Shown here one piece after another: positions 11,421 through 47,675 of a DNA stretch of 64,000 nt. Each line of letters opens with the position of its first letter. The stretch's first letter is position 1. Location of the stretch: contig NZ_BAAAWU010000001.1 in NCBI RefSeq assembly GCF_039535235.1, positions 434,001-498,000 of the forward strand, given 5' to 3'. The notes below the pieces were generated by a model, which made no database searches, was not told the DNA's origin, and was given only the letters and a program-made list of their open reading frames with translations. This DNA comes from Streptomyces roseoviridis. Lineage in GTDB: Bacteria; Actinomycetota; Actinomycetes; Streptomycetales; Streptomycetaceae. A program made the position numbers and the translations under genes.

Positions 11421-12335
11421 TCAGCCGTCGGTGGTCGCGGGCTCGTCCCCGTCCTCCAGGAGGCCCGCCCTCAGCTCGTCGAGGATGCGGGTGAGCAGGC
11501 GGGAGATGTGCATCTGGGACAGTCCGAGCCGTTCGCCGATCTCCGCCTGGGTGAGGTCCTCGCCGAAACGCAGCGACAGAATCTGCCGGTCGCGTTCGCC
11601 CAGACGGGCGATGAGCGGCTTGAGCGACTCGAAGTCCTCGATGAGTTCGTAGGCGGGCTCGGCGGTGGCGAGGCGGCGCGAGCTGTCGCGGGGGGCGTCG
11701 TCCTCGGCGACGGTGACGTCGAGGGAGTGGGCGGTGTAGCCGCGGGCGGCGAGCTCGCCCTCGGCGACCCGGTCCTCGGGGAGGTCCAGGTGGGCGGCGA
11801 CCTCGGCGCGGGTCGGGCGGTGGCCGAGCCGCTGTTCGAGCACGTCGGCGGCCTTGGCCATGTCGACGCGCAGCTCCTGGAGCCGCCGTGGGACCCGGAC
11901 GGCCCAACTGGTGTCGCGGAAGAATCGTTTCATCTCGCCCACGACCGTCGGCAGCGCGAACGCCGAGAACTCGATGCCCCGGGTGGGGTCGAAGCGGTCG
12001 ATGGCCTTGATCAGGCCGATGGTGCCGACCTGGACGATGTCCTCCCGCTGCTCGGGGCGGTTCCGGAAGCGACGGGCGGCGAAGCGGACCAGGCTCAGGT
12101 TGAGCTCGATCAGCGTGTTGCGCACGTACGCGTGCTCGGGTGTGCCCTCCTCCAGTTCCCGCAGCCGGGTGAGGAGCGAGGCCGAGAGCGTCTGGGCGTC
12201 GTCCGTGGAGACCTGGGTCGGCCGGTCGATCTCGGGCAGGCCGTGCAGCGCCTGGCGGCGTACGGCCGCGGCCTGTGAGCCGGGCCGGGTGGCGCTGCTG
12301 GTGCTGGTGTCGGTTCGGGCGGTGCGGGTGGACAT
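11421..12335 (-). CDS. SigB/SigF-family RNA polymerase sigma factor
   Basis: A 304-residue group 3 sigma factor. Region 2 is NLSLVRFAARRFRNRPEQREDIVQVGTIG followed by KAIDRFDPTRGIEFSAFALP; region 3 contains RLGHRPTRAEVAAHL; region 4 has the helix-turn-helix DLTQAEIGERLGLSQMHIS. The extended N-terminus (residues 1-45) is Ser/Thr/Ala-rich. Streptomyces carry several such factors, which control osmotic stress and differentiation and recognise GNNT-N14-16-GGGTAC/T. They are usually held by an anti-sigma factor, but none is encoded beside it here. AAGGAG precedes the ATG. Two matching promoters within 6 kb suggest local target genes. Confidence 0.9.
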   Translation of the reverse strand: MSTRTARTDTSTSSATRPGSQAAAVRRQALHGLPEIDRPTQVSTDDAQTLSASLLTRLRELEEGTPEHAYVRNTLIELNLSLVRFAARRFRNRPEQREDIVQVGTIGLIKAIDRFDPTRGIEFSAFALPTVVGEMKRFFRDTSWAVRVPRRLQELRVDMAKAADVLEQRLGHRPTRAEVAAHLDLPEDRVAEGELAARGYTAHSLDVTVAEDDAPRDSSRRLATAEPAYELIEDFESLKPLIARLGERDRQILSLRFGEDLTQAEIGERLGLSQMHISRLLTRILDELRAGLLEDGDEPATTDG

Positions 12336-20628: not shown

Positions 20629-21651
20629 ATGGGGACGGGACGGGCGCGTGAGGAACGCGACGGGCGCATGAGCGACGGGCGGCTCGGGGAGGCGCTGCGG
20701 CTGCTCGGTGTCGGCGAGGCGGCCCGCCGGGTCTATCTGGCCCTGCTCGACGCGGCGCCCGCGCCGCTGGGCGCGATCGGGCGGGCGGCCGGTCTGGCCG
20801 GTGCGGAGCTCACGGCGGCGTACGGGGAGCTGGTCGGCGCCGGCCTGGCGAGCGCCGCCGCCGAGGACGGCGACATGGTGGCGCCGGTGCCGCCGGCGGC
20901 GGGTCTGGAGATCCTGGCCCGGCACCGGGCGGCGGAGCTGGAGGAGTCGAGGATCGCGGTGGGCGGTGCCTTCGAGTCGTTCCGGCGGCATCGGCTCGCG
21001 GCGTACAACGACCACCTCGTGGAGGTCGTCACCGGGGACGCCATCGCTCCCCGGATGCGGCAGGCATGGGCGAGCGCCCGGGAGCAGATCCGGCAGCTGG
21101 ACTCGCCGCCGTACGTCCCGATCGCGGGCGCCACCGAGGACGCGCTGGCGACGCTCGCCCGGGGCGTGACGCAGCGGGTGGTCTACTCGCAGGGTTCGCT
21201 GGAGCACCCGGGGAAGCTGGCCACGGTGATCGAGCCGTGCATCGAGGCGGGCGAGCAGGCGAGGGTGCTGCCGTCGGTGCCGGTCAAGCTGCTGATCATC
21301 GACGAGGCGTACGCCCTGGTGTCGCTGTCGATCCAGGAGGCGGACGTGGTCAACACCGTCCTCGTGGTGCAGCCGTGCGGGCTGCTGTCCGCGCTGGTGG
21401 CGCTGTTCGAGCAGTCCTGGCGGAGCGCCCTGCCCTTCCACGGCCGCACCGCGCGCCCGGCCGGTCTGCCGCCGGCCGACCGGCGGTTGCTGCGGCTGCT
21501 CGCGGGAGGCGCGAGCGACGAGGTCATCGCCCGGGAGCTGGGGATCAGCCGCCGCACCCTGTTCCGGCGCCTCCAGGTCCTGATGGCGCGGCTCGGCGCG
21601 GCGAACCGGTTCCAGATGGCGCTGCAGGCCCAGCGCTCCGGGTGGCTGTGA
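20629..21651 (+). CDS. TrmB/LuxR-like transcriptional regulator of the peptide operon
   Basis: A 340-residue regulator. The N-terminus (residues 14-75) looks like a TrmB-type winged helix (ALRLLGVGEAARRVYLALLD), the middle (110-260) resembles a phospholipase-D-like sensor fold, and the C-terminus has a LuxR-type helix-turn-helix (GASDEVIARELGISRRTLFR). This architecture is common in Streptomyces beside secondary-metabolite and lanthipeptide genes. The nearest downstream genes form the peptide-export operon, so control of that operon is likely but inferred. ATG 20629 has AAGGGA upstream; an internal ATG at 20668 is an alternative. Confidence 0.75.
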   Translation: MGTGRAREERDGRMSDGRLGEALRLLGVGEAARRVYLALLDAAPAPLGAIGRAAGLAGAELTAAYGELVGAGLASAAAEDGDMVAPVPPAAGLEILARHRAAELEESRIAVGGAFESFRRHRLAAYNDHLVEVVTGDAIAPRMRQAWASAREQIRQLDSPPYVPIAGATEDALATLARGVTQRVVYSQGSLEHPGKLATVIEPCIEAGEQARVLPSVPVKLLIIDEAYALVSLSIQEADVVNTVLVVQPCGLLSALVALFEQSWRSALPFHGRTARPAGLPPADRRLLRLLAGGASDEVIARELGISRRTLFRRLQVLMARLGAANRFQMALQAQRSGWL

Positions 21652-22170
21652 CGGCCGCGTCCGGTCCGGGCCGGGTGGCCCGGCCTCGCACGGGCCCCGC
21701 ACCGCCCGCGCCCGCCCCGCCCGCCGATCCCTGCGCCGCCCGCCCCGCCCGCCGGGCCCGCGCCGCTCGCCCCGCCCGCCCCGCCCGCGCCGCTCGCGCC
21801 CGCCCGGTCCGCGCCCGCCCTGCCCCTCGGGTCGCGCGCCGTTCCCGCTCTCTGCCGGGAACCCGCACATTGTGTACGTGCCGCGAAGCCGGCCTCCTGT
21901 GCCGCTCCCCGGTCCGGCACAGCCGGCCGGGCCCTTCTGTCGTGCTTCACCCGATTCCTCCACCGAGCGCAACGGACCGCTGGAATCTGTTACTCCGTTT
22001 CGCGGAGAAGTTGTCGCCATCGCGTGAAACATGCTGCACGCCGGTCTCCCGACGTGCAGGAACGAGCCTGACAGGGCGTCAACCGAAGTGGAACGGCCAC
22101 CCGTTCGCGTGCTTTGATCTGCCGCGCCGCGGCATTCGGATTCCCCCCACCCTGACGAAAGGTGCGCTCC
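21652..22170. promoter_or_regulatory. Gap with hairpins and the peptide gene leader region
   Basis: There is no credible gene in this 519-base gap. The first part (21690-21840) is almost pure C/G with repeated CCCGCCCGCC. Two hairpins follow: GTTCCCG-N8-CGGGAAC at 21841-21862 and TGTGCCG-N10-CGGCACA at 21898-21921, likely terminators for the regulator gene. From 21925 the GC content falls to more ordinary levels up to the peptide start, which suggests a promoter and leader; CTCCG-N5-CGGAG lies at about 21992-22006. No confident -10/-35 pair was found. Confidence 0.5.
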
Positions 22171-22422
22171 ATGCGTAACGACATCGAGACCCTCGAGCTC
22201 GACGACAACGCCCTCGACGCCGTCTCCGGCGGTGTCATCAGCGTGAACGGCGGTCTCGCCGGCGCCGCGACCGGTGACGTCGCCACCCTGCTCGGCACCG
22301 TCGGCTCCCTGCAGTCCGTGCAGGCCGTCGAGGGCATCGCCACCGGCGTCCCGGGCCTGGCCCAGGGCATCACCGGCGTCTCGGTGAACACCGCCGCCGT
22401 GACCGGTCTCGCCGGTCTCTGA
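22171..22422 (+). CDS. Double-glycine leader peptide precursor (bacteriocin/signal peptide candidate)
   Basis: An 83-residue precursor. The leader MRNDIETLELDDNALDAVSG ends in a Gly-Gly at residues 20-21, the site cut by C39 peptidases, with the usual hydrophobic residues at -4, -7 and -12 (V, L, L/A region). The remaining 62 residues are rich in Gly, Ala, Val, Thr and Leu, contain no Cys, Trp, Tyr, Phe or Lys, and are strongly hydrophobic (for example VATLLGTVGSLQSVQAVEGI). A second Gly-Gly at 27-28 is possible. GAAAGG precedes the ATG; a GTG at 22162 would add three residues. The exporter genes follow after a strong hairpin. Without Cys it cannot be a lanthipeptide; it resembles an unmodified class II-type peptide. 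Confidence 0.85.
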   Translation: MRNDIETLELDDNALDAVSGGVISVNGGLAGAATGDVATLLGTVGSLQSVQAVEGIATGVPGLAQGITGVSVNTAAVTGLAGL

Positions 22423-22432
22423 GCAGACCCGT

Positions 22433-22472
22433 CCGTGGACCCCGGGGCGCGGGAGCGCCCCGGGGTCCACGG
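22433..22472 (+). terminator. 18-bp hairpin between peptide and exporter genes
   Basis: A perfect 18-bp stem (22433-22450 with 22455-22472) closes on a GGGA loop, 11 bases after the peptide stop codon. It probably stops most transcripts so that the precursor is made in excess of the exporter, or protects the peptide mRNA from decay. Confidence 0.8.
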
Positions 22473-22526
22473 CCCCCCGCCGCTCTTCACGGCGCAGCGC
22501 AGCACAGGCAGTCGAAGGAACAGTCC

Positions 22527-23297
22527 ATGCAATTCCGCCAGAAGGCCCTGTCCAAGCTGCAGTCGCCCGAAGAACTCGACCTGCCGGTGCGGTTCGCCCG
22601 GCCCCAGGGCCGTCTCGTCCTGGCCGTCACGGTCCTCGTCATGGCCGTCGCCGGCGTGTGGGCCTTCACCGGCACGGTGACGTCCAAGCTGAGCGCGCCC
22701 GGGATCCTCACCCGGCCCGAGGGCCGGTACCTGCTGCAGAGCCCGGTCGCGGGACAGGTGACGGAGCTCCTCGTCGCCGAGGGCGCCCGGGTCTCCCCCG
22801 GTCAGCCGCTCGCCGTCGTCCGCACCGAGCGGGGCGACCGGCCGGTGCGCGTCGTGGCCGGCGGCCGACTGGCCGCGCTGCACGTGGCGCCGGGCGCCGT
22901 CCTGGCGACCGGCGCGGACGTGGCGACCGTCGAACGCGTCACCGGTGGCGACGACCGCCTCGTGGCCGTCCTGTACGTACCGCCCGGCGCGACCGGCACC
23001 GTCCGGACGGGCGCCCGGGTCGACGTCACCCTGCCCTCGGTGGCCGGGGGCGGCGGCGCGGTGCTGCGCGGCCGGGTCGGCTCGGTGGGCCGCGCGCCGC
23101 AGACGCGGGCGCAGATCGGCGGCTTCCTCGGCGACGACGGCCTCGCCGCGCACTTCACGCGGCAGGGCAGCCCGGTGGCGGTGCTCGTGACCCTGGAGCG
23201 CTCCGGCGGCCGCCCCGACGCCGACGACTCCGGCACGCCGGTCACCGGCGCCGTCCACCTCTCCTCGCAACGCCCCGTCGACTGGCTGCTCCCGTGA
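22527..23297 (+). CDS. NHLM-type HlyD-like secretion adaptor
   Basis: A 256-residue membrane-fusion-type protein. Its start (MQFRQKALSKLQSPEELDLP) matches the NHLM bacteriocin system secretion protein family, and a single membrane segment (RLVLAVTVLVMAVAGVWAFT) follows at residues 29-50. Two half-motifs of the lipoyl-like domain are visible: SPVAGQVTELLVAEGARVSP and GGRLAALHVAPGAVLATGAD. It should bridge the ABC exporter and the cell wall space. GAAGGA lies before the ATG. Its stop overlaps the GTG of the next gene, so the two are coupled. Confidence 0.88.
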   Translation: MQFRQKALSKLQSPEELDLPVRFARPQGRLVLAVTVLVMAVAGVWAFTGTVTSKLSAPGILTRPEGRYLLQSPVAGQVTELLVAEGARVSPGQPLAVVRTERGDRPVRVVAGGRLAALHVAPGAVLATGADVATVERVTGGDDRLVAVLYVPPGATGTVRTGARVDVTLPSVAGGGGAVLRGRVGSVGRAPQTRAQIGGFLGDDGLAAHFTRQGSPVAVLVTLERSGGRPDADDSGTPVTGAVHLSSQRPVDWLLP

Positions 23298-25549
23298 ACC
23301 GGCTGAACCCGCGCAAGAAGACCTCCCCGGCCCGCCGCCGCCCCGCGCCCCGCCGCCGCCCCGCGCCCCGGCGCCGTCCCGTCCTCGGGGGCGGCCGTCC
23401 CCGGACCGTCCGCACCCCCACGGTGCTCCAGATGGAAGCGGTGGAGTGCGGCGCCGCAGCGCTCGCGATGGTCCTCGGCCACTACGGCCGCCATGTCCCG
23501 CTGGAGGAGCTGCGGATCGCCTGCGGCGTCTCCCGGGACGGCTCACGGGCCAGCAACCTGCTGAAGGCGGCGCGTGGTTACGGGCTCCAGGCCAAGGGCA
23601 TGCAGATGGACCTGGCGGCGCTCGCCGAGGTCGCGGCCCCGGCGGTGCTGTTCTGGGAGTTCAACCACTACGTCGTCTACGACGGCATGGGCCGCCGCTT
23701 CGGCCGGACCGGGGTCTACGTCAACGACCCGGCCAAGGGCCGCCGCTTCGTGCCCATGGAGGAGTTCGACACCGCGTTCACCGGCATCGTCCTCGTCTTC
23801 GAGCCGGGTGCCGGTTTCCGCCCCGGCGGCCGCAGGCCCGGTGTGCTCGGCGCCCTGCCGGTCCGGCTGCGCGGCACCTCGGGCACGATGGCCGCCGCGG
23901 TGCTCTCCAGCATCCTGCTGGTGGCCGTCGGCGCGTGGGTGCCGGCCCTGAGCCGTACGTACATCGACACCTTCCTCATCGGCGGCCAGGACTCGCTGCT
24001 CGGGGTGCTGTTCGCGGCGATGGCGACCGCGCTCGTGCTCACGGCGGTGCTCACCGCACTGCAGCAGACCAATCTGCTGCGCGGGCGGATCGTCTCCTCC
24101 ACCCTGGGCGGCGCCCGCTTCCTGCGGCACCTGCTGCGGCTGCCCGTGGCCTTCTACGCGCAGCGCAGCCCGGCCGACCTGGTGCAGCGGCTGCGGTCCA
24201 ACGACTCCGTCGCCGAGACCCTCGCCCGCGACCTGTCCGCGGCCGGCGTGGACGCGGTCGTGGTGCTGCTGTACGCGGTGCTGCTGTGGACCTACGACCC
24301 GCAGCTCACCGTCGTCGGTGTCGGTGTCGCGCTGCTCAACGTGGTGGCCCTGCGGATCGCGGTCCGCGTCAGGGCCACCGGCACCCACAAGCTGCGCGCC
24401 GAGAGCGCCCGGCTGACGAACACCTCGTACGGCGGTCTCCAGCTGATCGAGACGATCAAGGCGACGGGCGGCGAGGACGGCTTCTTCCGCCGCTGGTCCG
24501 GGCAGCACGCCGTCACCCTCGACGTGCAGCAGCGGCTCGGGGTGCCGAGCGCGTGGCTGGCGATCGTCGCACCCACCCTCGCCGCGCTGAACAGCGCCCT
24601 CATCCTGATGATCGGCGGACTGCGGGCCGTCGAGGGCCACCTGACGGTGGGTCTGCTCGTCGCCTTCCAGACCCTCGTGACCGGCTTCACCACGCCGATC
24701 GCCCGGCTCGGCGCGGTCGCGGGCCGGGCCCAGGACTTCGCCGCCGACGTCGCCCGGCTGAAGGACGTCGAGAACTTCCCCGTCGACCCCGTCCACACCC
24801 GGCGCGAGCCCGCCGGCGGCGCCCGCCGGCTCACCGGTCACGTCGAACTCGACGCCGTCACCTTCGGCTACAGCCCGCTGGACCCTCCGCTGCTCACCGG
24901 CTTCTCGCTCTCGGTCGGGCCCGGCCGGCAGGTCGCGCTGGTCGGCGGCTCCGGCAGCGGCAAGTCGACGGTGTCCCGTCTGATCGCCGGCCTGTACGCC
25001 CCCTGGGAGGGCACCGTCCGGATCGACGGGATGCGGCTCGCGGACATCCCGCGCGGCGCGCTCGCCGCCTCCGTCGCCTTCGTCGACCAGGACGTCTTCC
25101 TCTTCGAGGGCACCGTCCGGGACAACGTGGCGCTGTGGGACCCGTCCGTGCCGGACGAGGCCGTGGTCGCCGCGCTCGCCGACGCCGCCGTCCTCGACGT
25201 GGTGTCCCGGCGGCCGGGCGGCATCCACAGCCGGGTCGAGCAGGACGGCCGGAACTTCTCCGGCGGCCAGCGCCAGCGCCTGGAGCTCGCGCGGGCGCTG
25301 GTCCGCGACCCGAGCGTGCTGGTGCTGGACGAGGTGACCAGCGCCCTGGACGCGGTGACCGAGCGCGAGGTCATCGACAACCTGCGGCGGCGCGGCTGCG
25401 CGTGCGTGGTGATCGCCCACCGGCTCAGCACCGTGCGGGACAGCGACGAGATCCTCGTCCTCGACCGGGGCACGGTCGTCGAGCGCGGCCGGCACGCCGA
25501 GCTGTTGGCCGCGGGCGGCCCGTACGCCGACCTGGTCAAGGAGCACTGA
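23294..25549 (+). CDS. NHLM-type peptidase/permease/ATPase ABC exporter
   Basis: A 751-residue exporter with three domains. The C39 peptidase (about 35-175) has Cys52 in MEAVECGAAA, His125 in FNHYVVYDG and Asp145 in YVNDPAKG, all needed to cut after Gly-Gly. Six membrane helices span roughly 200-500. The nucleotide-binding domain has Walker A GGSGSGKST (551-559), signature FSGGQRQRLE, Walker B VLVLDEVTSALD and the H-loop VIAHRLS. The first 35 residues are an Arg/Pro repeat (RRRPAPRRRPAPRRRP) absent from typical members. It should remove the leader and export the peptide at 22171. There is no separate ribosome binding site, consistent with GTGA coupling. Confidence 0.93.
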   Translation: MNRLNPRKKTSPARRRPAPRRRPAPRRRPVLGGGRPRTVRTPTVLQMEAVECGAAALAMVLGHYGRHVPLEELRIACGVSRDGSRASNLLKAARGYGLQAKGMQMDLAALAEVAAPAVLFWEFNHYVVYDGMGRRFGRTGVYVNDPAKGRRFVPMEEFDTAFTGIVLVFEPGAGFRPGGRRPGVLGALPVRLRGTSGTMAAAVLSSILLVAVGAWVPALSRTYIDTFLIGGQDSLLGVLFAAMATALVLTAVLTALQQTNLLRGRIVSSTLGGARFLRHLLRLPVAFYAQRSPADLVQRLRSNDSVAETLARDLSAAGVDAVVVLLYAVLLWTYDPQLTVVGVGVALLNVVALRIAVRVRATGTHKLRAESARLTNTSYGGLQLIETIKATGGEDGFFRRWSGQHAVTLDVQQRLGVPSAWLAIVAPTLAALNSALILMIGGLRAVEGHLTVGLLVAFQTLVTGFTTPIARLGAVAGRAQDFAADVARLKDVENFPVDPVHTRREPAGGARRLTGHVELDAVTFGYSPLDPPLLTGFSLSVGPGRQVALVGGSGSGKSTVSRLIAGLYAPWEGTVRIDGMRLADIPRGALAASVAFVDQDVFLFEGTVRDNVALWDPSVPDEAVVAALADAAVLDVVSRRPGGIHSRVEQDGRNFSGGQRQRLELARALVRDPSVLVLDEVTSALDAVTEREVIDNLRRRGCACVVIAHRLSTVRDSDEILVLDRGTVVERGRHAELLAAGGPYADLVKEH

Positions 25550-25550
25550 C

Positions 25551-28523
25551 GTGACCTCGCCGACCCCGTTCCCGGCCCCCTCGCCCGCCACGGCCGCCGC
25601 GACCGCCCCGGCGTCCGACCCGGTGCTCACCGCGCTCGGCGCCCTCGGCGCGCCCGTGGAAGGCTCGGGCCTGCGCAGCCTCCCCCTGGAAGGCCCGTCC
25701 GTGCTGTGGCTGGTCGTCCACGGCAGCCTCGACCTGTTCGCCGTCGACGCCGCCCACGCCGGCGCCTGGCACTTCCTCGGCCGGGTGGAGGCGGGCGCGC
25801 TGCTGCTCGGCCCCGCCGAGGGCCCCCGGCACACCCTGGTCGGCCGGCCCTCCCAGGAGTGCCTGCTGCGCCGGATCGAACTGCGCGAACTGCGGCGGCC
25901 GGAGTACGGGGCCGTGCCCGAGCAGGGCGGCGGCTGGGGCGGGGCCTGGGGCGGTTCCTGGTACGAGGACCAGGGAGGCGGCTACGGGGCGTACGACGGG
26001 TACGGGACGGCCGCGCCGGCCGGCTCCCCGGTCGGCGCGCCGGTCGCGAGCCCGCTGGAGGACGCCTTCGCGCTCGGTATCGGCCGGGGCCTTCGGGTGC
26101 TGTACGAGGCTCCGCTCGACGGCAGGTTCGGGCAGGCGCGGGGCGCCGCCGACGACGAGGTCGTGTGGATGCACGTCACGCCGGGCGGCCTGGCCTACGG
26201 CGCTGCCTACGAGGCGGAGGCGGCCGGCACGCTGCTCGTCGACCCGGTGCTGTGGCAGGGCATGGTCGAGCAGCAGTACCGGCTGCTGTACGCGCTCGAC
26301 GACTGGATCGAGGAGCGTGAACGCGCCCAGGAGGACCGGACGGCCGCCGGCCTCGCGGCGGGCCGCGCGGCCGGCAGCGAGGCGGACCGGGCGCTGCTCG
26401 CCGCCCTCGGCCGTCCGGGCGGGCGGGACCGGCGCGGCGACGGCACCGACGCCACCCTCGCCGTGTGCCGCCTGGTGGCCGCGGAGGCCCGGATCGCGCT
26501 GCCTGACTCGGTCGCCTCGGCCGTCTCCGCGACGGCGGGGACCGGCGAGGAGCGCACCGACCCGGTGGACCGCATCGCGCTCGCCGCCCGGATCCGCACC
26601 CGCGAGGTCGGGCTGCGCGGACGCTGGTGGCGGGAGAACTGCGGGCCGCTGGTGGGCCGCCGCGAGGCGGACGGTGCACCGGTCGCGCTGCTGTGGCGGC
26701 GCGGCCGCTACGTGGCGGTGGACCGCGCCGGCGGGCGCCGGGAGCGGATCGACGAGGCGAACGAGGCCGCCTTCGAGCGGCGCGCCGTGATGTTCTACCG
26801 GCCGCTGCCGGAGGGCCGCCTCGGGCTGCCCCGGCTGCTGCGCTTCAGCCTCCGCGGCACCCGCCAGGAGCTGCGCGACCTGCTCGTGGGCGGTCTCGTG
26901 GCGGTGGTCCTCGGCGCGACGGTGCCGGTGGCGACCGGGCGGGTCCTCGGCGCGTACGTCCCCGCGGCCGAGCGCGACCTGATCGTGCAGACCTCGATGG
27001 CGCTCGTCGCGGCCGCCGTGGTGTCCGCCGCGTTCATGCTGCTGCAGAACGTCTCCCTGCTGCGCATGGAGGGCCGGATCGAGGCCACCCTCCAGCCGGC
27101 GGTGTGGGACCGGCTGCTCAGACTGCCGACGACGTTCTTCACCGGGCGTTCGACGGGCGAGCTGGCCAACGCGGCGCTCGGCATCGGCGCCGTCCGGCGC
27201 ATGCTGGCCGGGGTCGCGCCGGTGTGCCTCCAGGCGAGCACGGTCGGCGTGACCAACCTGGTCCTGCTGTTCGTCCACAGCGTGCCGCTGGCGCTGGTGG
27301 CGCTCGCGCTGCTGCTGGTCGTCGCGACGGTGTTCCTGGGACTCGGCCTGTGGCAGCTGCGCTACCAGAGACGGCTGGTCGAGCTGGGCAACCGACTGGA
27401 CAACCGGGCCTTCCAGACGCTGCGGGGGCTGCCGAAGCTGCGGGTCGCCGCCGCCGAGAGCTTCGCGTACGCGGCCTGGGCGCGGGAGTTCGCCCGTACC
27501 CGGGTGCTCCAGCAGCGGGCCGGCCGGATCCAGAACGCGCTGACGGTGCTCGGCGCGGTGTGCCTGCCGCTGTGCGGCCTGGTGATGTTCGTGCTGCTGG
27601 CCGGCCCGGCCCGCGGCAGCCTGTCCGCGGCCGGGTTCCTCACCTTCTCCACCGCCCTGACGATGCTGCTGTCCTCGGTCACCCAGCTCACCGGGGCGCT
27701 CCTGTCGGTCGCGGCCGTGCTGCCGGTCTTCGAGCAGGTCGAGCCCATCCTGCGGGCGGAGCCCGAGGTGCGCGGCGGGGCGGCGCGGCCCGGCGTGCTC
27801 AGCGGCGCGATCGAGGCCCGGCAGCTGTCGTACCGCTACAGCGAGGACGGCCCGCTGGTCCTCGACGGCATCGACCTGGCGGTGCGGCCCGGCGAGTTCG
27901 TCGCGATCGTGGGGGCGAGCGGCTGCGGCAAGTCGACCCTGCTGCGGCTCCTCATCGGCTTCGACCGGCCGACCGAGGGAAGCGTGCTGTACGACGGCCA
28001 GGACCTGGCCGCCCTCGACCAGGCGGCGGTGCGCCGCCAGTGCGGGGTGGTCCTCCAGCACGCCCGGCCGCTGACCGGGTCGATCCTGGACTGCCTGCGC
28101 GGCGCGGAGGCGTACACGCTGGAGGAGGCGTGGGAGGCCGTGACGCTCGCGGGGCTCGCCGAGGACGTCAAGGCCATGCCGATGGGCCTGCACACGATGC
28201 TGTCGGACGGCGGCGGCACCGTCTCCGGCGGACAGCGGCAGCGTCTGATGATCGCCCAGGCCCTGATCCGCAAGCCGCGGATCCTCTTCCTCGACGAGGC
28301 GACCAGCGCGCTCGACAACGAGGCCCAGCGGGTGGTCATCGAGTCCACGAAGGCGCTGGCCGCGACCCGGGTGGTGATCGCCCACCGGCTCTCCACGGTC
28401 ATGGGCGCCGACCGGGTGATCGCGATGGCGGACGGCCGGATCGTCCAGCAGGGCACTCCCGCGGAGCTCCTCGCGGACGCGGGCGGTCTGTTCCACGAGC
28501 TGGTGCGCCGCCAGCTGCGCTGA
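25551..28523 (+). CDS. NHLM-type second ABC transporter (permease/ATPase) with long N-terminus
   Basis: A 990-residue protein matching the second ABC component of NHLM bacteriocin systems. Residues 1-430 are a cytoplasmic region with a cyclic-nucleotide-like domain at the start (SVLWLVVHGSLDLFAVDA) and a Gly/Tyr/Trp-rich insertion at about 124-170. Membrane helices lie between 445 and 730. The ATPase domain has Walker A GASGCGKST (788-796), signature VSGGQRQRLM, Walker B ILFLDEATSALD and VIAHRLS. It has no peptidase domain. It probably forms a heterodimer with the C39 transporter. The GTG start lies one base after the upstream stop. Confidence 0.92.
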   Translation: MTSPTPFPAPSPATAAATAPASDPVLTALGALGAPVEGSGLRSLPLEGPSVLWLVVHGSLDLFAVDAAHAGAWHFLGRVEAGALLLGPAEGPRHTLVGRPSQECLLRRIELRELRRPEYGAVPEQGGGWGGAWGGSWYEDQGGGYGAYDGYGTAAPAGSPVGAPVASPLEDAFALGIGRGLRVLYEAPLDGRFGQARGAADDEVVWMHVTPGGLAYGAAYEAEAAGTLLVDPVLWQGMVEQQYRLLYALDDWIEERERAQEDRTAAGLAAGRAAGSEADRALLAALGRPGGRDRRGDGTDATLAVCRLVAAEARIALPDSVASAVSATAGTGEERTDPVDRIALAARIRTREVGLRGRWWRENCGPLVGRREADGAPVALLWRRGRYVAVDRAGGRRERIDEANEAAFERRAVMFYRPLPEGRLGLPRLLRFSLRGTRQELRDLLVGGLVAVVLGATVPVATGRVLGAYVPAAERDLIVQTSMALVAAAVVSAAFMLLQNVSLLRMEGRIEATLQPAVWDRLLRLPTTFFTGRSTGELANAALGIGAVRRMLAGVAPVCLQASTVGVTNLVLLFVHSVPLALVALALLLVVATVFLGLGLWQLRYQRRLVELGNRLDNRAFQTLRGLPKLRVAAAESFAYAAWAREFARTRVLQQRAGRIQNALTVLGAVCLPLCGLVMFVLLAGPARGSLSAAGFLTFSTALTMLLSSVTQLTGALLSVAAVLPVFEQVEPILRAEPEVRGGAARPGVLSGAIEARQLSYRYSEDGPLVLDGIDLAVRPGEFVAIVGASGCGKSTLLRLLIGFDRPTEGSVLYDGQDLAALDQAAVRRQCGVVLQHARPLTGSILDCLRGAEAYTLEEAWEAVTLAGLAEDVKAMPMGLHTMLSDGGGTVSGGQRQRLMIAQALIRKPRILFLDEATSALDNEAQRVVIESTKALAATRVVIAHRLSTVMGADRVIAMADGRIVQQGTPAELLADAGGLFHELVRRQLR

Positions 28524-28667: not shown

Positions 28668-29315
28668 TCAGCGGACCCCGCGCGGGCGGAACTGCACGCT
28701 GATGCGGGGGCCGACGGCGCGGCTGGTCTTGGGGACGGCGTGCTCCCAGGTGCGCTGGCACGAGCCGCCCATGACGAGGAGGTCGCCGTGGCCCGAGGGC
28801 AGGCGGAGGGCCACCGGGCCGCCGCCGCGCGGGCGGAAGGCCAGGTCGCGCGGGTCGCCGAGGGCGAGGATCGCGACCATGGTGTCCTGGGTGGAGGAGC
28901 GGCCGGTGCGGTCGCCGTGCCAGGCGACGCTGTCGCGTCCGTCGCGGTAGAGGCAGAGCCCGGCCGTCACGAACGGTTCGCCCAGCTCGTCGGCGTAGTG
29001 CGCGTCGAGGGCCTCGCGGGCCTCGGTGAGCGCGGGGTGCGGCAGCGGGGCGCCTTCCCGGTAGGACGCGAGGAGCCGTGGGACGGCCACGACGTTGTCG
29101 TACATCGTGCGCTCCTCGGCCTGCCAGGGGACGCCGGTGACCAGCTCCTCGAAGAGGGCGTCGGCGCCGTGGAACCAGCCGGGCAGGTGGTCGACCCAGG
29201 CGCCGTCGCCCAGCTCCGTGCGCCGGACGCCGTCGAGGGGACCGGGTCCGATGTCGGAGCCCTGGTCGAAGAGGGAGCCCTGGAATCCCGGGAGGTGGGG
29301 TCGTACGGCGGTCAT
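28668..29315 (-). CDS. alkB: AlkB-like 2-oxoglutarate/Fe(II) dioxygenase
   Basis: A 215-residue nucleic-acid repair dioxygenase. The iron ligands are in AWHGDRTG (His-x-Asp) and TWEHAVPKT (His), and RISVQFRPR supplies the Arg that binds 2-oxoglutarate; LCLYRDGRDSVAWHGD is the family signature stretch. It would remove methyl groups from N1-methyladenine and N3-methylcytosine by oxidation. The ATG at 29315 begins MTAVRPHLPGFQGSLFDQ; longer frames are unlikely. It stands alone between the peptide operon and an NmrA-like gene. Confidence 0.9.
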   Translation of the reverse strand: MTAVRPHLPGFQGSLFDQGSDIGPGPLDGVRRTELGDGAWVDHLPGWFHGADALFEELVTGVPWQAEERTMYDNVVAVPRLLASYREGAPLPHPALTEAREALDAHYADELGEPFVTAGLCLYRDGRDSVAWHGDRTGRSSTQDTMVAILALGDPRDLAFRPRGGGPVALRLPSGHGDLLVMGGSCQRTWEHAVPKTSRAVGPRISVQFRPRGVR

Positions 29316-29398
29316 GGTTCCAGCGTAGACGACAATCGAACGCGCGAGCGATTCGAGGCGGTGGTGGGTGGTGGTCCGGCGGGCCGCGGGTCGGCGGC

Positions 29399-30265
29399 TC
29401 AAAAGGCGAGGAGGCGCCGGTAGCTCTCCGGGTGGGCCGCGAGGAAGTCCGCGAAGGACTGCGGCGGGTGCCCGGTCAGGGTGCGCACGTCGTCGGACAC
29501 GTCGTCCATCTCCCCGGCGGCCACGGCCTCGTACGAGGTCACCCAGCCCTCGACCTCCCATTCGGGGGCGTCGTAGACCGCGCGCGAGGCGTACGCCTCC
29601 TCGCGGGTCTCCGGGTGGTAGGTGATCGTGCGGCCGCACGCGCGGGTGAGGGCGGCGGCGATCTCGTCGAAGCTCAGCGCCTCGGGACCGGTCATGTCGT
29701 ACGTGGCGCCGTCGTGCCCGTCACCGAGCAGCACCGCCGAGGCCGCGTCGGCGATGTCGTCGTGGGTGACGGCGCCCACGCGCCCGTCCCCGGCCGGACC
29801 GCGCAGGACGCCCTCGGAGGACGTCATGGCGACCAGGTCGGCCTGGTAGGTGCTGTCCCGCAGGAAGGTGAAGGAAAGACCGGTGGAGCGGATGCGCTGC
29901 TCGGTGTGCCAGTGGTCACGGGCGAAGGTGAAGGTGGCGTGCGGAGCGGCGTTGAGGTAGGAGAGGTAGACGATCCGCCGCACCCCGGCGGCCACGGCGG
30001 CGTCCACGGCGGTGCCGTGGGTCCTCACCCGGCCCGGCGCCTCGTGGGCCGACACCAGGAAGAGCGTGGTCGCGCCGTCGAGGGCGGCCCGCATTCCGGG
30101 GGCGTCGTCGTAGGACGCGGTCCGGCCGTCGGCGACCGGCAGCGCGGCCAGTCTCGCCGGGTCGCGCCCCAGCGCGCGGACGTCGGCGCCCGCCTCGGCG
30201 AGGTGCCGCACCACCCGCCGTCCGATCCGCCCGGTGGCCCCGGTGACCGCGATCAGCTCGCCCAT
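29399..30265 (-). CDS. NmrA-like NAD(P)-binding protein, atypical SDR
   Basis: A 288-residue Rossmann-fold protein. The N-terminal VTGATGRIGRRVVRHL binds the dinucleotide, and GVRRIVYLSYLNA marks the strand before the active-site region. The usual catalytic Tyr-x3-Lys of classical SDRs is not evident, and the sequence follows the NmrA/QOR2 group, which act as redox sensors or quinone reductases. The C-terminal third (YHPETREEAYASRAVYDAPE) is typical of that subgroup. GGAGAGG lies upstream of the ATG. It is separated from the upstream oxidoreductase by a strong hairpin. Confidence 0.85.
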   Translation of the reverse strand: MGELIAVTGATGRIGRRVVRHLAEAGADVRALGRDPARLAALPVADGRTASYDDAPGMRAALDGATTLFLVSAHEAPGRVRTHGTAVDAAVAAGVRRIVYLSYLNAAPHATFTFARDHWHTEQRIRSTGLSFTFLRDSTYQADLVAMTSSEGVLRGPAGDGRVGAVTHDDIADAASAVLLGDGHDGATYDMTGPEALSFDEIAAALTRACGRTITYHPETREEAYASRAVYDAPEWEVEGWVTSYEAVAAGEMDDVSDDVRTLTGHPPQSFADFLAAHPESYRRLLAF

Positions 30266-43651: not shown

Positions 43652-44428
43652 GTGCACCTGATATTCACGTCGGGGCGCCGGAGGTCGGTGCTCGCCGCCG
43701 TCCTGTGCGCCCTCGCCCTCGTCCTCGGACTTCCGGCGACCGCCCACGCCGCCGTGCTCCAGCCGCTGCCGCAGAACGCCGACGGCCTGGAGCTGACCTA
43801 CGCGCCGGTGTACGACTTCGACACCGACGGCTGCTACATGACGGCCGCCATCGGTGCCGACGGCACGCTCAACCCGGGGCTCAAGCTGGGCGGCACCGTC
43901 AACGGACAGTGCCACGACCCCGCCCAGCTGGCCGCCGCCAACTCCTACTCCCGCGCGAAGTGCAACAACGGCTGGTGCGCCGTCGTCTACGCCGGCTACT
44001 ACGAGAAGGACCAGGCCACCTGGGGACCGCTCGCCCTCGGGCACCGCCACGACTGGGAGCACGTGGTGGTCTGGATCAGCGGTGACCAGGTCCAGTACGT
44101 CTCGGTCTCGCAGCACAGCGGCTACCAGGTGGCCGCCCGGTCGGCGATCCGCTTCGACGGCACCCACCCCAAGATCGTCTACCACAAGGACGGCGCCTCC
44201 ACCCACTGCTACCGCTTCGCCGGCTCGGCCGACGAGCAGATCGAGAACGCCACCGGCGCCTGGTTCCGGCCCCGTCTGGTCGGCTGGAACGGTTATCCGG
44301 CCGGACTGCGCGAGAAGCTCACGGCCGCGGACTTCGGCTCGGCGACCCTCAAGATCCGGGACGCGGACTTCGCGAACGCCCTGGCCCGTTCCGAGCCGGC
44401 GGGCCTTCCGTTCGACCCCTACGCCTGA
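43652..44428 (+). CDS. Secreted NPP1/NLP (necrosis-inducing-like) protein
   Basis: A 258-residue exported protein. A signal peptide covers residues 1-35 (SVLAAVLCALALVLGLPATA), and the mature protein contains the NLP heptapeptide GHRHDWE, which in plant-pathogen toxins coordinates the metal needed for membrane damage. Other NLP features are the conserved cysteines (CYMTAAI, QCHD, KCNNGWC) and HSGYQVA. NLPs from oomycetes and Pectobacterium bind glycosyl-inositol-phosphoceramides and lyse plant membranes; many actinobacterial members have no tested activity. GTG 43652 follows AAGGAG. It is followed by a hairpin and the AfsR-type regulator gene. Confidence 0.9.
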   Translation: MHLIFTSGRRRSVLAAVLCALALVLGLPATAHAAVLQPLPQNADGLELTYAPVYDFDTDGCYMTAAIGADGTLNPGLKLGGTVNGQCHDPAQLAAANSYSRAKCNNGWCAVVYAGYYEKDQATWGPLALGHRHDWEHVVVWISGDQVQYVSVSQHSGYQVAARSAIRFDGTHPKIVYHKDGASTHCYRFAGSADEQIENATGAWFRPRLVGWNGYPAGLREKLTAADFGSATLKIRDADFANALARSEPAGLPFDPYA

Positions 44429-44505
44429 GCCGGGCGGTCCCAGGCGGCCCGCACCGGCCGCGGCCGAAGGCTCCCGGCCGGACCCGCGGACCTTTGCGCT
44501 GGTCC

Positions 44506-44543
44506 GGACCGGTGCCGGACGGACCGGGGTCCGGTGCCGGTCC
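44506..44543. terminator. Hairpin between NPP1-like and AfsR-type genes
   Basis: A 15-bp stem (44506-44520 with 44529-44543) with two G-U pairs. Each arm also contains CCGGTGCCGG, so the site is both an inverted and a direct repeat. It could end the NPP1 transcript or be a binding site upstream of the regulator gene. Confidence 0.45.
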
Positions 44544-44666
44544 GGTTCCGGCCCCGGATCCGTCCGGTTCCGGCCTCTTCCGACGTCTGGAGGGTTCCGA
44601 CAAAGGTCCTGGGCGCGCCGGTGGGGATACTGGGACCCCACGAAACAGAGCGACAGGGAGGGCCGG

Positions 44667-47600
44667 GTGGAGTTCCGCCTGCTCGGGACGGTGTCCATCG
44701 CGGCCGAGACGGGTGAACTGCCGCTCGGCCCCGCCAAGCGGCGCAGCGTGCTCGCCGCGCTGCTGCTGCGCGCCAACTCCGCCGTCCCCGTGGACCGGCT
44801 GATCGACACGGTCTGGGACGAGGACCCGCCCGCGCGGGCCCGCACCGTCGTCCAGGGACACGTCTCCCGGCTGCGGGCGCTCTTCGACCAGGGCGGCGCG
44901 GGCGACTACGGGGTCGAGCTGGCCACGCACACCCAGGCGTACGAGCTGCGCATGCCCGAGCAGCTGCTCGACACCCACCGCTTCGACGAGCTGGTCCAGC
45001 TCGCCGGGCACCAGAAGCACCCGGCGGACGCCGTCCTGATGCTCCGTGAGGCGCTGGCGCTGTGGCGCGGCCCCGCCCTGACCGGGACGGTGGCCAGCGA
45101 GCCGCTGCTCGTCGCGGCCCGGGCCCTGGAGGAGACCCGGTTGGTGACGGTCGAGCAGCTGGCCGCGGCGCACGGGCGGCTCGGCGAGCACGCGAAGGCG
45201 GCGGCCCTGCTGCGCGCGGAGGCGGCGGCGCACCCGCTGCGCGAGTCCCTGGCGGCGGCGTTGATGCTGTCGCTGTACCGGGCGGGGCACCAGTCGGACG
45301 CCCTGGACGTCTACCACCGCACGCGCACCCAGCTGGCGGAGGAGCTGGGCGTGGACCCGGGCCCGGCGCTGCGGGCCGCGTACGAGGCGGTGCTGCGGGG
45401 GCTGGCGCCCGCGGGACAGACCGTGCCCTGGCCCGAGGCCGCGTACGGGGCCCCCGGCCCGCACCCCGGCCCCTGGACCGACGGCACGTCAGGGGCCGCC
45501 GCGACGGGCGCGCCGTACGACGGCCTGCCGGGCGGCGGGCACCGGGAGGACGCTGGCCCGCGCGAGGGCATCCCGCACGCCGGCCCCGCGGGCACCGGCT
45601 CCCCCGGTCCCGCCTCCTCGGGCACCGGCACCCCCGGTCTCCGCTCCCCCGGTCCCGGCTTCCCCGGTGCCGGTCTGCCGGGCGCAGGGGCGTCCCCCGA
45701 CGGCGGCGCGTCCTCGGGCGACGCCGCCTCAGCCGCCGGGCACGAGGACGGCACCGCCGGCCCGGCGGCACCCGCTCCGCCCGCCCTGCCCGCGCCGGAT
45801 CTGCTGCCCCGCACCCCGCGGGGGTTCCTCGGCCGCGAGCGTGAGCTCGCGGCGCTCGACGCGGCGGTCGACACGGCCCGGGTGGCCCTGGTGACCGGCC
45901 CCGCCGGAGTCGGCAAGACCGCGCTCGCCCTGCAGTGGGCGCACCGGCGGGCCGGGGACTTCCCCGACGGCGTGCTCTACGCCGACCTGCGGGGCTTCAG
46001 CGCCGACGACGGGCTCGACGCCCTCGACGTCCTCCGGGAGTTCCTGCCCGCCCTCGGCGTGCCGCCGCGCCGGATCCCGGAGTCGCCGACGGCGGCCGCC
46101 GCGCTGTACCGGTCGCTCACCGAGGACCGGGCGCTGCTCGTCGTCCTCGACAACGTGCGCGGCGCCGACCGGGCCAGGCCCCTGCTGCCCGCCGGGGCGC
46201 ACAGCGCCACCGTGGTGACCTCGCGGCTGCGGCTCGGCGGGCTCGTGGTGTCCGAGCTGGCCCGGCCGGTGCCGCTCGGCGTCCTCGGCCTCGACGAGTC
46301 CGCGGCCCTGCTCGCGGCGGCGGTCGGCACGGACCGGGTCGCGGCGGAACCGGCCGCCGCCAGGCGGCTCGCCGAACTGTGCGACGGGCTGCCGCTCGCC
46401 CTGCGGGTGACCGCTGCGCAGCTGGCCGCCCGCCCGCACTGGCGGCTCGCGGATCTCGCCGACGAACTCGCCGACGAGCAGCGGCGCCTGGCACTGCTGT
46501 CGGTGGGCGGTGCCGAGGAGGACGCCGAGGGCGCGGGCGTGGCCGCCGCGCTGCGGCTGACCGTGCAGGGCCTGCCGGCGGAGGCGGCGCGGCTGTTCCG
46601 GCAGATGGGCGTGGCGCCGGGGACGGACCTGGACCGGCACGCCGCCGCCGCGCTCCTGGACGGTACGCCGGCGGTCGCCGCGGAGGCCCTCGACCGGCTC
46701 TGCGACGCGCACCTGCTCTCCGAGTACGCGCCGGGCCGGCACACCGTGCACGACCTGGTACGGCTGTACGCGCGCAGCCTGGAACCCGACGAGGACGCGC
46801 TGCTGCGACTGCTCGACCACTACACCCTGACGGCCATGGCCGCGGCGCGGGCGGCGGAGCCGGACGACCTGCCGTGCTGCGCGGCTCCGCCGGACGCCAG
46901 GACGCCCCGTACCGCCGTGCGCTTCGCGGGCCGCGACGCGGCGCTGCTCTGGTACGCGGCCGAGCGCGACAACCTGGCGGCGGCCGTCGCCGCCGCCCGG
47001 GCGGCCGGGCACCACGACCGGGCCTGGCGGCTCGCCGTCCTGCAGTGGCCGTACATCCTGTGGAACAGCCACGACGGCTGGGTGCCGCTGCTCGAGGACG
47101 CCGTGGACTCGGCCGCGCGGGTGGACGACCCCGACGCCGAGTCCCGGGCCCGGGCGCTCCTCGGCTGGCTGCTGACCCAGGACGGCCGCCTGGCCGAGGC
47201 CCTGGTGCACCTGCGGCTCGCTCCCGCGCTCGCGGCCCGTGCGGGCGAACGGTCCAGTGAGGCGACGGCCCTGGTCAACCTCGCGGTCGCACTGGACCGG
47301 ACCGGAGTGACCGAGGAGTCCCTCGCCCACACGGCACGGGCCGCCGAACTCGTCCGTGGCAGCGGTGACGTGATGACCGAACTCCTCGCCCTGGAGCACC
47401 GCGCCCGCCAGCTCCTCGCGGTGGGTGACCCGCGCGGGGCCCTCGCCTGTGCGCGCGAGGGCCTGGCGCTGGACGGCGACACCGTCAACGGCCTGGTCGG
47501 CATCCGCCAGAGCGAACTGACCGCCACGGCCGGCGCCGCCCTGCTGGACCTGGGCCGCCCCGCCGAGGCCCGTGCCACCCTCACCCGGGCTCGTGAGCTC

Positions 47601-47675
47601 GGTCTGGCCCACGGGTACCAGGAGAGCGTCCGCCGCGTGGAGACCCAGCTGCTCCGCATCCGCGAGACGGCCTGA
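44667..47675 (+). CDS. AfsR/SARP-type transcriptional regulator with NB-ARC and TPR domains
   Basis: A 1002-residue regulator. The N-terminal OmpR-like winged helix (residues 1-90, VEFRLLGTVSIAAETGELPL) is followed by the bacterial transcriptional activation domain (95-245, HRFDELVQLAGHQKHPADAV). A Pro/Gly linker with repeats such as GPGFPGAGLPGAGAS spans about 255-370. The NB-ARC ATPase has its P-loop in GPAGVGKTALAL and the CDGLPLALRVTAAQLA motif; TPR repeats follow from about 790. In Streptomyces coelicolor the related AfsR integrates signals to switch on secondary metabolism. No biosynthetic cluster is adjacent, so the targets are unknown. GTG 44667 follows GGGAGG. Confidence 0.92.
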   Translation: MEFRLLGTVSIAAETGELPLGPAKRRSVLAALLLRANSAVPVDRLIDTVWDEDPPARARTVVQGHVSRLRALFDQGGAGDYGVELATHTQAYELRMPEQLLDTHRFDELVQLAGHQKHPADAVLMLREALALWRGPALTGTVASEPLLVAARALEETRLVTVEQLAAAHGRLGEHAKAAALLRAEAAAHPLRESLAAALMLSLYRAGHQSDALDVYHRTRTQLAEELGVDPGPALRAAYEAVLRGLAPAGQTVPWPEAAYGAPGPHPGPWTDGTSGAAATGAPYDGLPGGGHREDAGPREGIPHAGPAGTGSPGPASSGTGTPGLRSPGPGFPGAGLPGAGASPDGGASSGDAASAAGHEDGTAGPAAPAPPALPAPDLLPRTPRGFLGRERELAALDAAVDTARVALVTGPAGVGKTALALQWAHRRAGDFPDGVLYADLRGFSADDGLDALDVLREFLPALGVPPRRIPESPTAAAALYRSLTEDRALLVVLDNVRGADRARPLLPAGAHSATVVTSRLRLGGLVVSELARPVPLGVLGLDESAALLAAAVGTDRVAAEPAAARRLAELCDGLPLALRVTAAQLAARPHWRLADLADELADEQRRLALLSVGGAEEDAEGAGVAAALRLTVQGLPAEAARLFRQMGVAPGTDLDRHAAAALLDGTPAVAAEALDRLCDAHLLSEYAPGRHTVHDLVRLYARSLEPDEDALLRLLDHYTLTAMAAARAAEPDDLPCCAAPPDARTPRTAVRFAGRDAALLWYAAERDNLAAAVAAARAAGHHDRAWRLAVLQWPYILWNSHDGWVPLLEDAVDSAARVDDPDAESRARALLGWLLTQDGRLAEALVHLRLAPALAARAGERSSEATALVNLAVALDRTGVTEESLAHTARAAELVRGSGDVMTELLALEHRARQLLAVGDPRGALACAREGLALDGDTVNGLVGIRQSELTATAGAALLDLGRPAEARATLTRARELGLAHGYQESVRRVETQLLRIRETA

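Follow-up and report, generated by a model that had tools for sequence, protein, structure and literature searches.

Transporters of the NHLM type are described, in the accessible part of an earlier report (PMC2887384), together with NHLP or Nif11 precursors and modifying enzymes. The closest described arrangement is found in Streptomyces coelicolor, where, according to the available excerpt of a 2019 study (PMC6629963), sco0753 encodes a 77-residue hydrophobic Cys-free peptide upstream of sco0754-0756. The same excerpt states that the order sco0753-sco0756 is conserved in many Streptomyces, and its authors judge export by these proteins likely. In that study, no gene is induced more strongly than sco0753 in the dispersed-growth strain with the activating allele sco5282-D125G, and in the null mutant sco0753 expression nearly vanishes; its authors propose that the sco0753 peptide influences the hyphal surface. 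Excerpts of further reports list SCO0753 as up in the aor1 mutant (PMC5733086), sco0756 as up on Ppm1 loss (PMC5882110), and SCO0756 under bacteriocin biosynthesis (PMC6414726). Streptomyces LanT clusters have also been described, in a report whose accessible part does not mention the cassette (PMC3951391). Among the matches listed, no paper characterising the peptide was found by title or abstract start, many subscription papers lying outside the search. Here we analyse such a cassette from Streptomyces roseoviridis, located in a 64,000-nucleotide stretch (the window) of a one-contig genome of 7.45 Mb. Since the four-gene arrangement has already been described in S. coelicolor (PMC6629963, accessible part), it is not a new kind of system. 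New here are a genus-wide element before the precursor gene, a hairpin after it, anionic cores with helical periodicity, and an HlyD protein predicted to lack the coiled-coil hairpin.

Judged by recurrence across loci, the conserved unit is composed of four genes, encoding the precursor, HlyD, and two ATP-binding cassette (ABC) proteins, ABC1 and ABC2. The precursor gene (22171..22422, 83 aa) specifies a leader of 21 residues ending LDAVSGG (22171-22233), followed by a core of 62 residues (22234-22419). Downstream are located the genes for the HlyD-like membrane-fusion protein (22527..23297, 256 aa), the NHLM-type transporter ABC1 (23294..25549, 751 aa), which begins with a GTG start codon and harbors an N-terminal C39 peptidase (residues 41-172), and the second NHLM-type transporter ABC2 (25551..28523, 990 aa). 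On balance, we favor the reading that these genes form a self-contained cassette, in which the leader would be cut at the first Gly-Gly (GG) and an unmodified 62-residue peptide would be secreted to act at the hyphal surface. A preliminary description of this stretch had counted an upstream regulator as part of the operon. All five genes are present where that description placed them, all on the + strand. The regulator gene (20629..21651), which is LuxR-type with a weak TrmB-like start, scores 23.5 bits with the Pfam profile GerE, at its cut-off, and 14.1 bits with TrmB, below cut-off. Of 81 loci from a scan of named genomes, in which 80 of 84 loci were kept and the window was added, three carry this regulator gene, namely the window, L043, and L089. 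Among the 147 loci of a larger genus sample, it is found in the window only. The regulator is therefore a local neighbour, and its place in the system was rejected.

The genus sample comprises 199 Streptomyces genomes, screened for ABC1 over the TIGR03796 cut-off independently of the precursor. The 146 matches outside the own genome were taken with up to 8 kb per side and, together with the window, give the 147 loci. ABC1 over the cut-off occurs in 145 of the 199 genomes. The transporter clade of the window, defined by ABC1 identity of at least 76%, occurs in 142, as a single copy in each; in the own genome, a single match exceeds the TIGR03796 cut-off. Five of the 147 loci carry divergent ABC1s of 49-60% identity. 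Among the 142 clade loci, HlyD is found in 137, ABC2 in 139, and all four genes in 134, the remaining eight ending at contig ends (five just upstream of ABC1, three at most 0.9 kb after it). Omitting the five loci cut upstream by contig ends (L231, L261, L267, L276, and L285) and the five divergent transporters (L283, L284, L286, L287, and L288) yields a set of 137 loci. A double-glycine precursor, chosen in the final counts as the candidate nearest HlyD, lies before HlyD in every one of them. This result agrees with the preliminary description, which had proposed a genome search for like precursors beside NHLM transporters.

Of the 80 loci kept in the named-genome scan, 73 show the order precursor-HlyD-ABC1-ABC2, so that the cassette is far beyond chance, and six of the other seven loci end at a contig end. 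One locus (L088) retains the precursor together with a portion of HlyD, and such an ABC1 is missing although the stretch is uncut. At another (L282), HlyD is preceded by a tandem pair of like double-glycine precursors, the sole case among the 137 loci. For two transporters over cut-off from outside Streptomyces (G296 and G303, with 55% and 51% identity), no such precursor was found in the short stretch examined.

The two ABC proteins belong clearly to the NHLM families. ABC1 scores 987.6 bits against a TIGR03796 cut-off of 853.3, and ABC2 839.8 bits against a TIGR03797 cut-off of 709.4, in line with the earlier proposal of a class II-like double-glycine leader on an NHLM-type exporter. The Peptidase_C39 domain of ABC1 is recognized with an E-value of 1e-34 (Pfam), and Cys52, His125, and Asp145, previously named as the intact active site, are at exactly these positions. 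His and Asp are conserved in all 137 aligned ABC1 sequences (window included), Cys and Gln46 in 136, with one gap. By sequence, the C39 active site and the ABC motifs are complete. In ABC2, the TIGR03797 match covers residues 301-989, and the roughly 300 residues N-terminal to it (window 25551-26450) show no Pfam domain.

HlyD scores 107.6 bits with TIGR03794 (E 6.6e-31), below the cut-off of 156.2, and is composed of 256 aa against 421 profile positions. In its AlphaFold2 model, with a predicted local distance difference test (pLDDT) score of 68.6, strands 94-100 and 103-109 are linked by a short turn, which sits where other adaptors carry the coiled-coil hairpin. The closest fold in the PDB is BesA (template-modelling score 0.46), which we take to be a Borrelia adaptor without hairpin. 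The HlyD adaptor is predicted from this model to be hairpin-less as well. Such an adaptor would fit a Gram-positive cell, because there is no TolC to reach.

For the precursor, neither an NCBIfam family at E<=0.1, the NHLP and Nif11 leaders of NHLM substrates included, nor a Pfam family over cut-off was found. The precursor possesses an MRND-type leader and shares 40-49% identity with ten members of a 71-residue branch. In a protein search with the window precursor, 29 relatives were retrieved at E<=10; when a peptide of 71 residues from another branch served as the query, 596 were retrieved at E<=0.001. Among the best 120 of these 596, the named ones are mostly 'type A2 lantipeptide' or hypothetical protein. 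The exporter is carried by 142 of 199 Streptomyces genomes, yet public records often call one branch a 'type A2 lantipeptide'. This label, and a lanthipeptide in general, is contradicted because Cys is absent from the family (0/80 named-locus precursors and 0/137 cores) and LanC from the own genome.

The predicted boundary between leader and core is strongly conserved. The first GG occupies one alignment column in 137/137 loci and is followed by L, V, or I in all of them, and AGL forms the C-terminus of 113 cores. Two cores had been proposed earlier, of 62 and 55 residues. The longer one is favored, following the family-wide GG, whereas cleavage at the second GG (core residues 4-9), present in 17/137 cores against 137/137 for the first, was rejected. 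The window core has an average mass of 5603.29 and contains no C, K, W, F, Y, or R. Its lack of Cys and Lys, already pointed out in the preliminary description, extends to the genus sample, where Cys, Lys, and Trp are found in 0/137 cores, Arg in nine, Phe in three, and Tyr in two; Lys is absent from 75 of 80 named-locus precursors, the other five having one each. Lacking Lys, Arg, Cys, and aromatic residues, the window core would escape both tryptic proteomics and detection at 280 nm, and this may be the reason that no product appears among the papers searched. On average, A, G, V, L, I, or T make up 79% of core residues in the 137 cores, and the net charge is negative in 134 and neutral in three.

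Substitution rates indicate that the core is under purifying selection, weaker than that on the leader and the transporter. The ratio of nonsynonymous to synonymous substitution rates (dN/dS), calculated in bins of equal-length cores, stays under 1 in each of the four distance bins, at 0.38-0.74 for the core, 0.31-0.33 for the leader, and 0.08-0.14 for ABC1, and positive selection on the core was rejected on these core values. Helical periodicity was examined in 32 thinned cores of 125 distinct ones. It reaches z 4.8 at 100 degrees and 6.9 at 110 degrees, with a weaker, unexplained maximum at 130 degrees (z 3.5). All z values from this set are inflated because the thinned cores are still related. 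In the same cores, small-xxx-small pairs are enriched (z 6.3), and no periodicity is present at 140-180 degrees; a beta or amyloid-like core was rejected on the latter ground.

These properties bear on the possibility that the product is an unmodified class II bacteriocin, whose amphipathic helices would insert into the membrane of competitors. The GG leader, the C39 exporter, and the lack of known modifying enzymes at the loci would suit such a product, as would the fast-evolving core, the helical periodicity, and the enrichment of small-xxx-small pairs, which are typical of two-peptide bacteriocins. Most class II bacteriocins are cationic, however, whereas 134 of the 137 cores are net negative. 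Moreover, no neighbour is common to all loci, so that no immunity gene is evident with the crude gene caller used, and single-copy presence in 142 of 199 genomes would be unusual. We therefore consider a bacteriocin unlikely. Among the products named in the preliminary description (bacteriocin, morphogen, or signal), the morphogen is retained as a possible role, and the anionic core and the apparent absence of an immunity gene shared by the loci make the bacteriocin less plausible.

To survey the neighbourhood, the flanks of the 137 loci were covered by a crude gene call, which misses open reading frames under 60-80 aa, together with tblastn (1094 proteins, 1.57 Mb). Neighbour families were merged by shared 4-mers, and the best 24, the lowest at 15 loci, were scanned with Pfam. 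None of these 24 is a known family modifying ribosomally synthesized and post-translationally modified peptides (RiPPs), and five have no Pfam match, which upholds the earlier statement that no modifying enzyme lies beside the peptide. No gene among the listed families is common to all loci, the top one reaching 81/137. Taken together with the core composition, the survey suggests that the core is likely unmodified.

A modified RiPP, with its enzyme encoded away from the cassette, would place the exporter in the context in which NHLM exporters are described, beside NHLP/Nif11 precursors and modifying enzymes (PMC2887384, accessible part). The window core contains 11 Ser/Thr, the own genome encodes one YcaO protein, and a 2-oxoglutarate (2OG)-Fe(II) oxygenase gene (2OG-FeII_Oxy_2; 28668-29639, - strand) lies directly downstream. 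The oxygenase gene, however, occurs at 2/81 loci (the window and L089) and, among the 137 genus-sample loci, in the window only; it is not conserved beside the cassette and was rejected as a modifier. The YcaO gene (L320, 1453292-1454353) is located about 1 Mb from the cassette, near other ABC transporter genes, and Cys, as said, is found in none of the cores. In addition, no LANC_like match was found in the own genome, with a positive control. A LanC-like protein is present in 170 of the 199 genomes, and the transporter clade occurs in 25 of the 29 LanC-free genomes (the own genome and 24 others) compared with 117 of the 170 LanC-bearing ones. A remotely encoded modifying enzyme thus appears quite improbable.

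The usual NHLM arrangement is nevertheless present in Streptomyces, beside the divergent transporters. Four of these five adjoin enzymes for thiazole/oxazole-modified microcins (TOMMs), SagB in four and SagD in two: L283 and L284 have a SagD-type YcaO and SagB, L286 and L287 have SagB, and L288 is a 3.2-kb fragment. L286 also encodes a 117-residue protein that weakly resembles an NHLP leader (27.3 bits against a cut-off of 50.9), whose counterpart at L287 has no family. The window cassette is therefore a separate one.

Two elements flank the precursor gene. Upstream, a block with the consensus GATTGGA-N15-CGTGCTTTGATCC recurs across the genus. Its 12-mer CGTGCTTTGATC is exact at 91/137 loci, and is present with at most one mismatch at 112 and with at most three at 135. 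Shuffling once per locus gave 0 matches at <=1 mismatch and 11 at <=3, a contrast that is somewhat generous because the 12-mer was picked from the same data. In the window, the element TGG-N16-CGTGCTTTGATC (22089..22119, + strand) is exact and ends 51 nt before the start codon, and is predicted to be a regulatory or promoter site. It is the sole match in the window at <=3 mismatches (0.91 expected by chance) and the sole match in the own genome at <=2, where a backwards control pattern gives five. At <=2 mismatches, 24 other genomes of the genus contain 0-8 matches each (backwards control 0-6), and 15 genomes of the same order contain 2-15 each (control 1-11).

Downstream, a perfect 18-bp inverted repeat with a 4-nt loop (22433..22472, + strand) is located between the precursor and HlyD genes. 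A stem of at least 12 bp with at most one mismatch follows the precursor in 124/137 loci, versus 4/685 shuffles. The hairpin is not a classic terminator, because the T content following the stem is only 26%, and a T-run is lacking. It is predicted to be an attenuation, processing, or stability site. An RNA element was rejected, both of the two Rfam matches being far below the gathering score.

The conserved element before the precursor would also be in line with a secreted signal for development or aggregation that is not a surface-active material. The S. coelicolor genes respond to sco5282/5283 and to Aor1 loss, according to the accessible parts of PMC6629963 and PMC5733086, as such a signal might. 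The core is long for a signalling peptide, however, its sequences diverge between species, and no receptor gene is common to all loci. We give this alternative a low probability, similar to that of the bacteriocin.

In the self-contained cassette that we favor, the C39 domain of ABC1 would cleave the precursor after the first GG, and the 62-residue peptide would be exported through the ABC1/ABC2/HlyD complex. Export with leader removal is very probable given the conserved active site and GG. The hairpin, as a processing or attenuation point, would favor the precursor over the transporter. The secreted peptide would stay without modification and, as an anionic, helical, surface-active molecule, might alter the hyphal surface, leading to dispersal or aggregation. 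The surface role is the weakest step, a tentative suggestion drawn from the S. coelicolor expression data and the composition of the core. The exporter is present in about seven of ten sampled Streptomyces genomes, and the peptide would therefore probably have a shared cell-surface job.

Several points weigh against this reading. The core evolves faster than the leader and the transporter, and its all-pairs ratio of nonsynonymous to synonymous differences (pN/pS), calculated without length filter, is 1.05. The AlphaFold2 model of the precursor contains helices at low confidence (pLDDT 54) and no confident fold. The surface role draws on one published transcriptome of another species. As for modification, a working control existed for the LanC and YcaO searches only, radical S-adenosylmethionine enzymes were not searched for, and the searches for LanB and LanM gave no match in any control genome. 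With 197.9 bits against the SagD cut-off of 219.25, the sole YcaO protein encoded by the own genome resembles SagD without reaching that score. In addition, redox and methyltransferase genes at a minority of loci may be modifiers where present.

If the reading holds, the cassette would illustrate cleanly how an NHLM-type exporter can work without modifying enzymes. Should the surface role prove true as well, pellet formation, which causes practical difficulties in Streptomyces fermentation, could be influenced by simple genetic means.

The neighbour families assigned by Pfam are headed by SpoIIE phosphatases (three overlapping entries, at 73-81 of the 137 loci) and alpha-lytic-type proteases (two overlapping entries, 74 loci each), followed by a subtilisin inhibitor (42), Ppx-GppA (37), Haem_oxygenas_2 (35), a methyltransferase (28), and FMN_red (26). 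The others are major facilitator superfamily, thioesterase, CDGSH, regulator, and AHSA1 families, as well as fragments of FMN_dh and ABC genes. An alpha-lytic-type serine protease gene (L143 type; L143:4819-6288, - strand) is divergent and at most 1 kb upstream of the precursor at 43/137 loci; its product may be a second processing enzyme, which could trim the peptide. It is absent beside the window cassette, and none of the tested flanking genes of the window was seen at any other genus-sample locus. Elsewhere in the window are a large BTAD/NB-ARC (SARP-like) regulator gene (43854-47675, + strand) and a gene for a sigma-70-family factor (11421-12335, - strand).

Compared with known systems, the cassette most closely resembles sco0753-sco0756 of S. 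coelicolor, as described in the accessible part of PMC6629963, sharing four genes in identical order, a short Cys-free hydrophobic peptide, an HlyD homologue, and two ABC proteins. Moreover, SCO0757 (exopolyphosphatase) follows the S. coelicolor cassette, and Ppx-GppA lies within 0.6 kb behind ABC2 at 19/137 sample loci. The precursors of L147 and L150 have 77 residues from the first start, the length printed for sco0753. The window peptide, in contrast, belongs to another branch, with 83 aa and the MRND-type leader. The proposed orthology with sco0753-0756 rests on gene order, length, and neighbour, the likeness being drawn via the published description.

With the NHLM/NHLP systems (TIGR03794/03796/03797), the cassette shares two ABC proteins over the curated cut-offs. 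It differs from them in having neither a nitrile-hydratase or Nif11 leader match nor a recurring TOMM or LanM gene, and in an HlyD that is below cut-off and predicted to be hairpin-less. Like class II bacteriocins, it combines a GG leader and a C39 exporter, with no known modification enzyme at the locus, but it has two ABC proteins, an anionic core, and no evident recurrent immunity gene, and it is widespread in the genus.

SapB resembles a lantibiotic and requires Cys, and chaplins, which assemble into beta fibrils, leave the cell by the Sec route. The window peptide differs from both in its predicted GG/ABC export and its helical periodicity. All are hydrophobic peptides of the same genus that are secreted or, for the window peptide, predicted to be so, and SapB and chaplins are mentioned in the accessible part of PMC6629963. 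It is conceivable, though rather doubtful at present, that the family is a third class of Streptomyces surface peptides beside SapB and chaplins, unmodified, anionic, and amphipathic-helical, exported by a double-ABC machine with a hairpin-less adaptor, controlled by its own genus-wide promoter element, and setting hyphal clumping versus dispersal.

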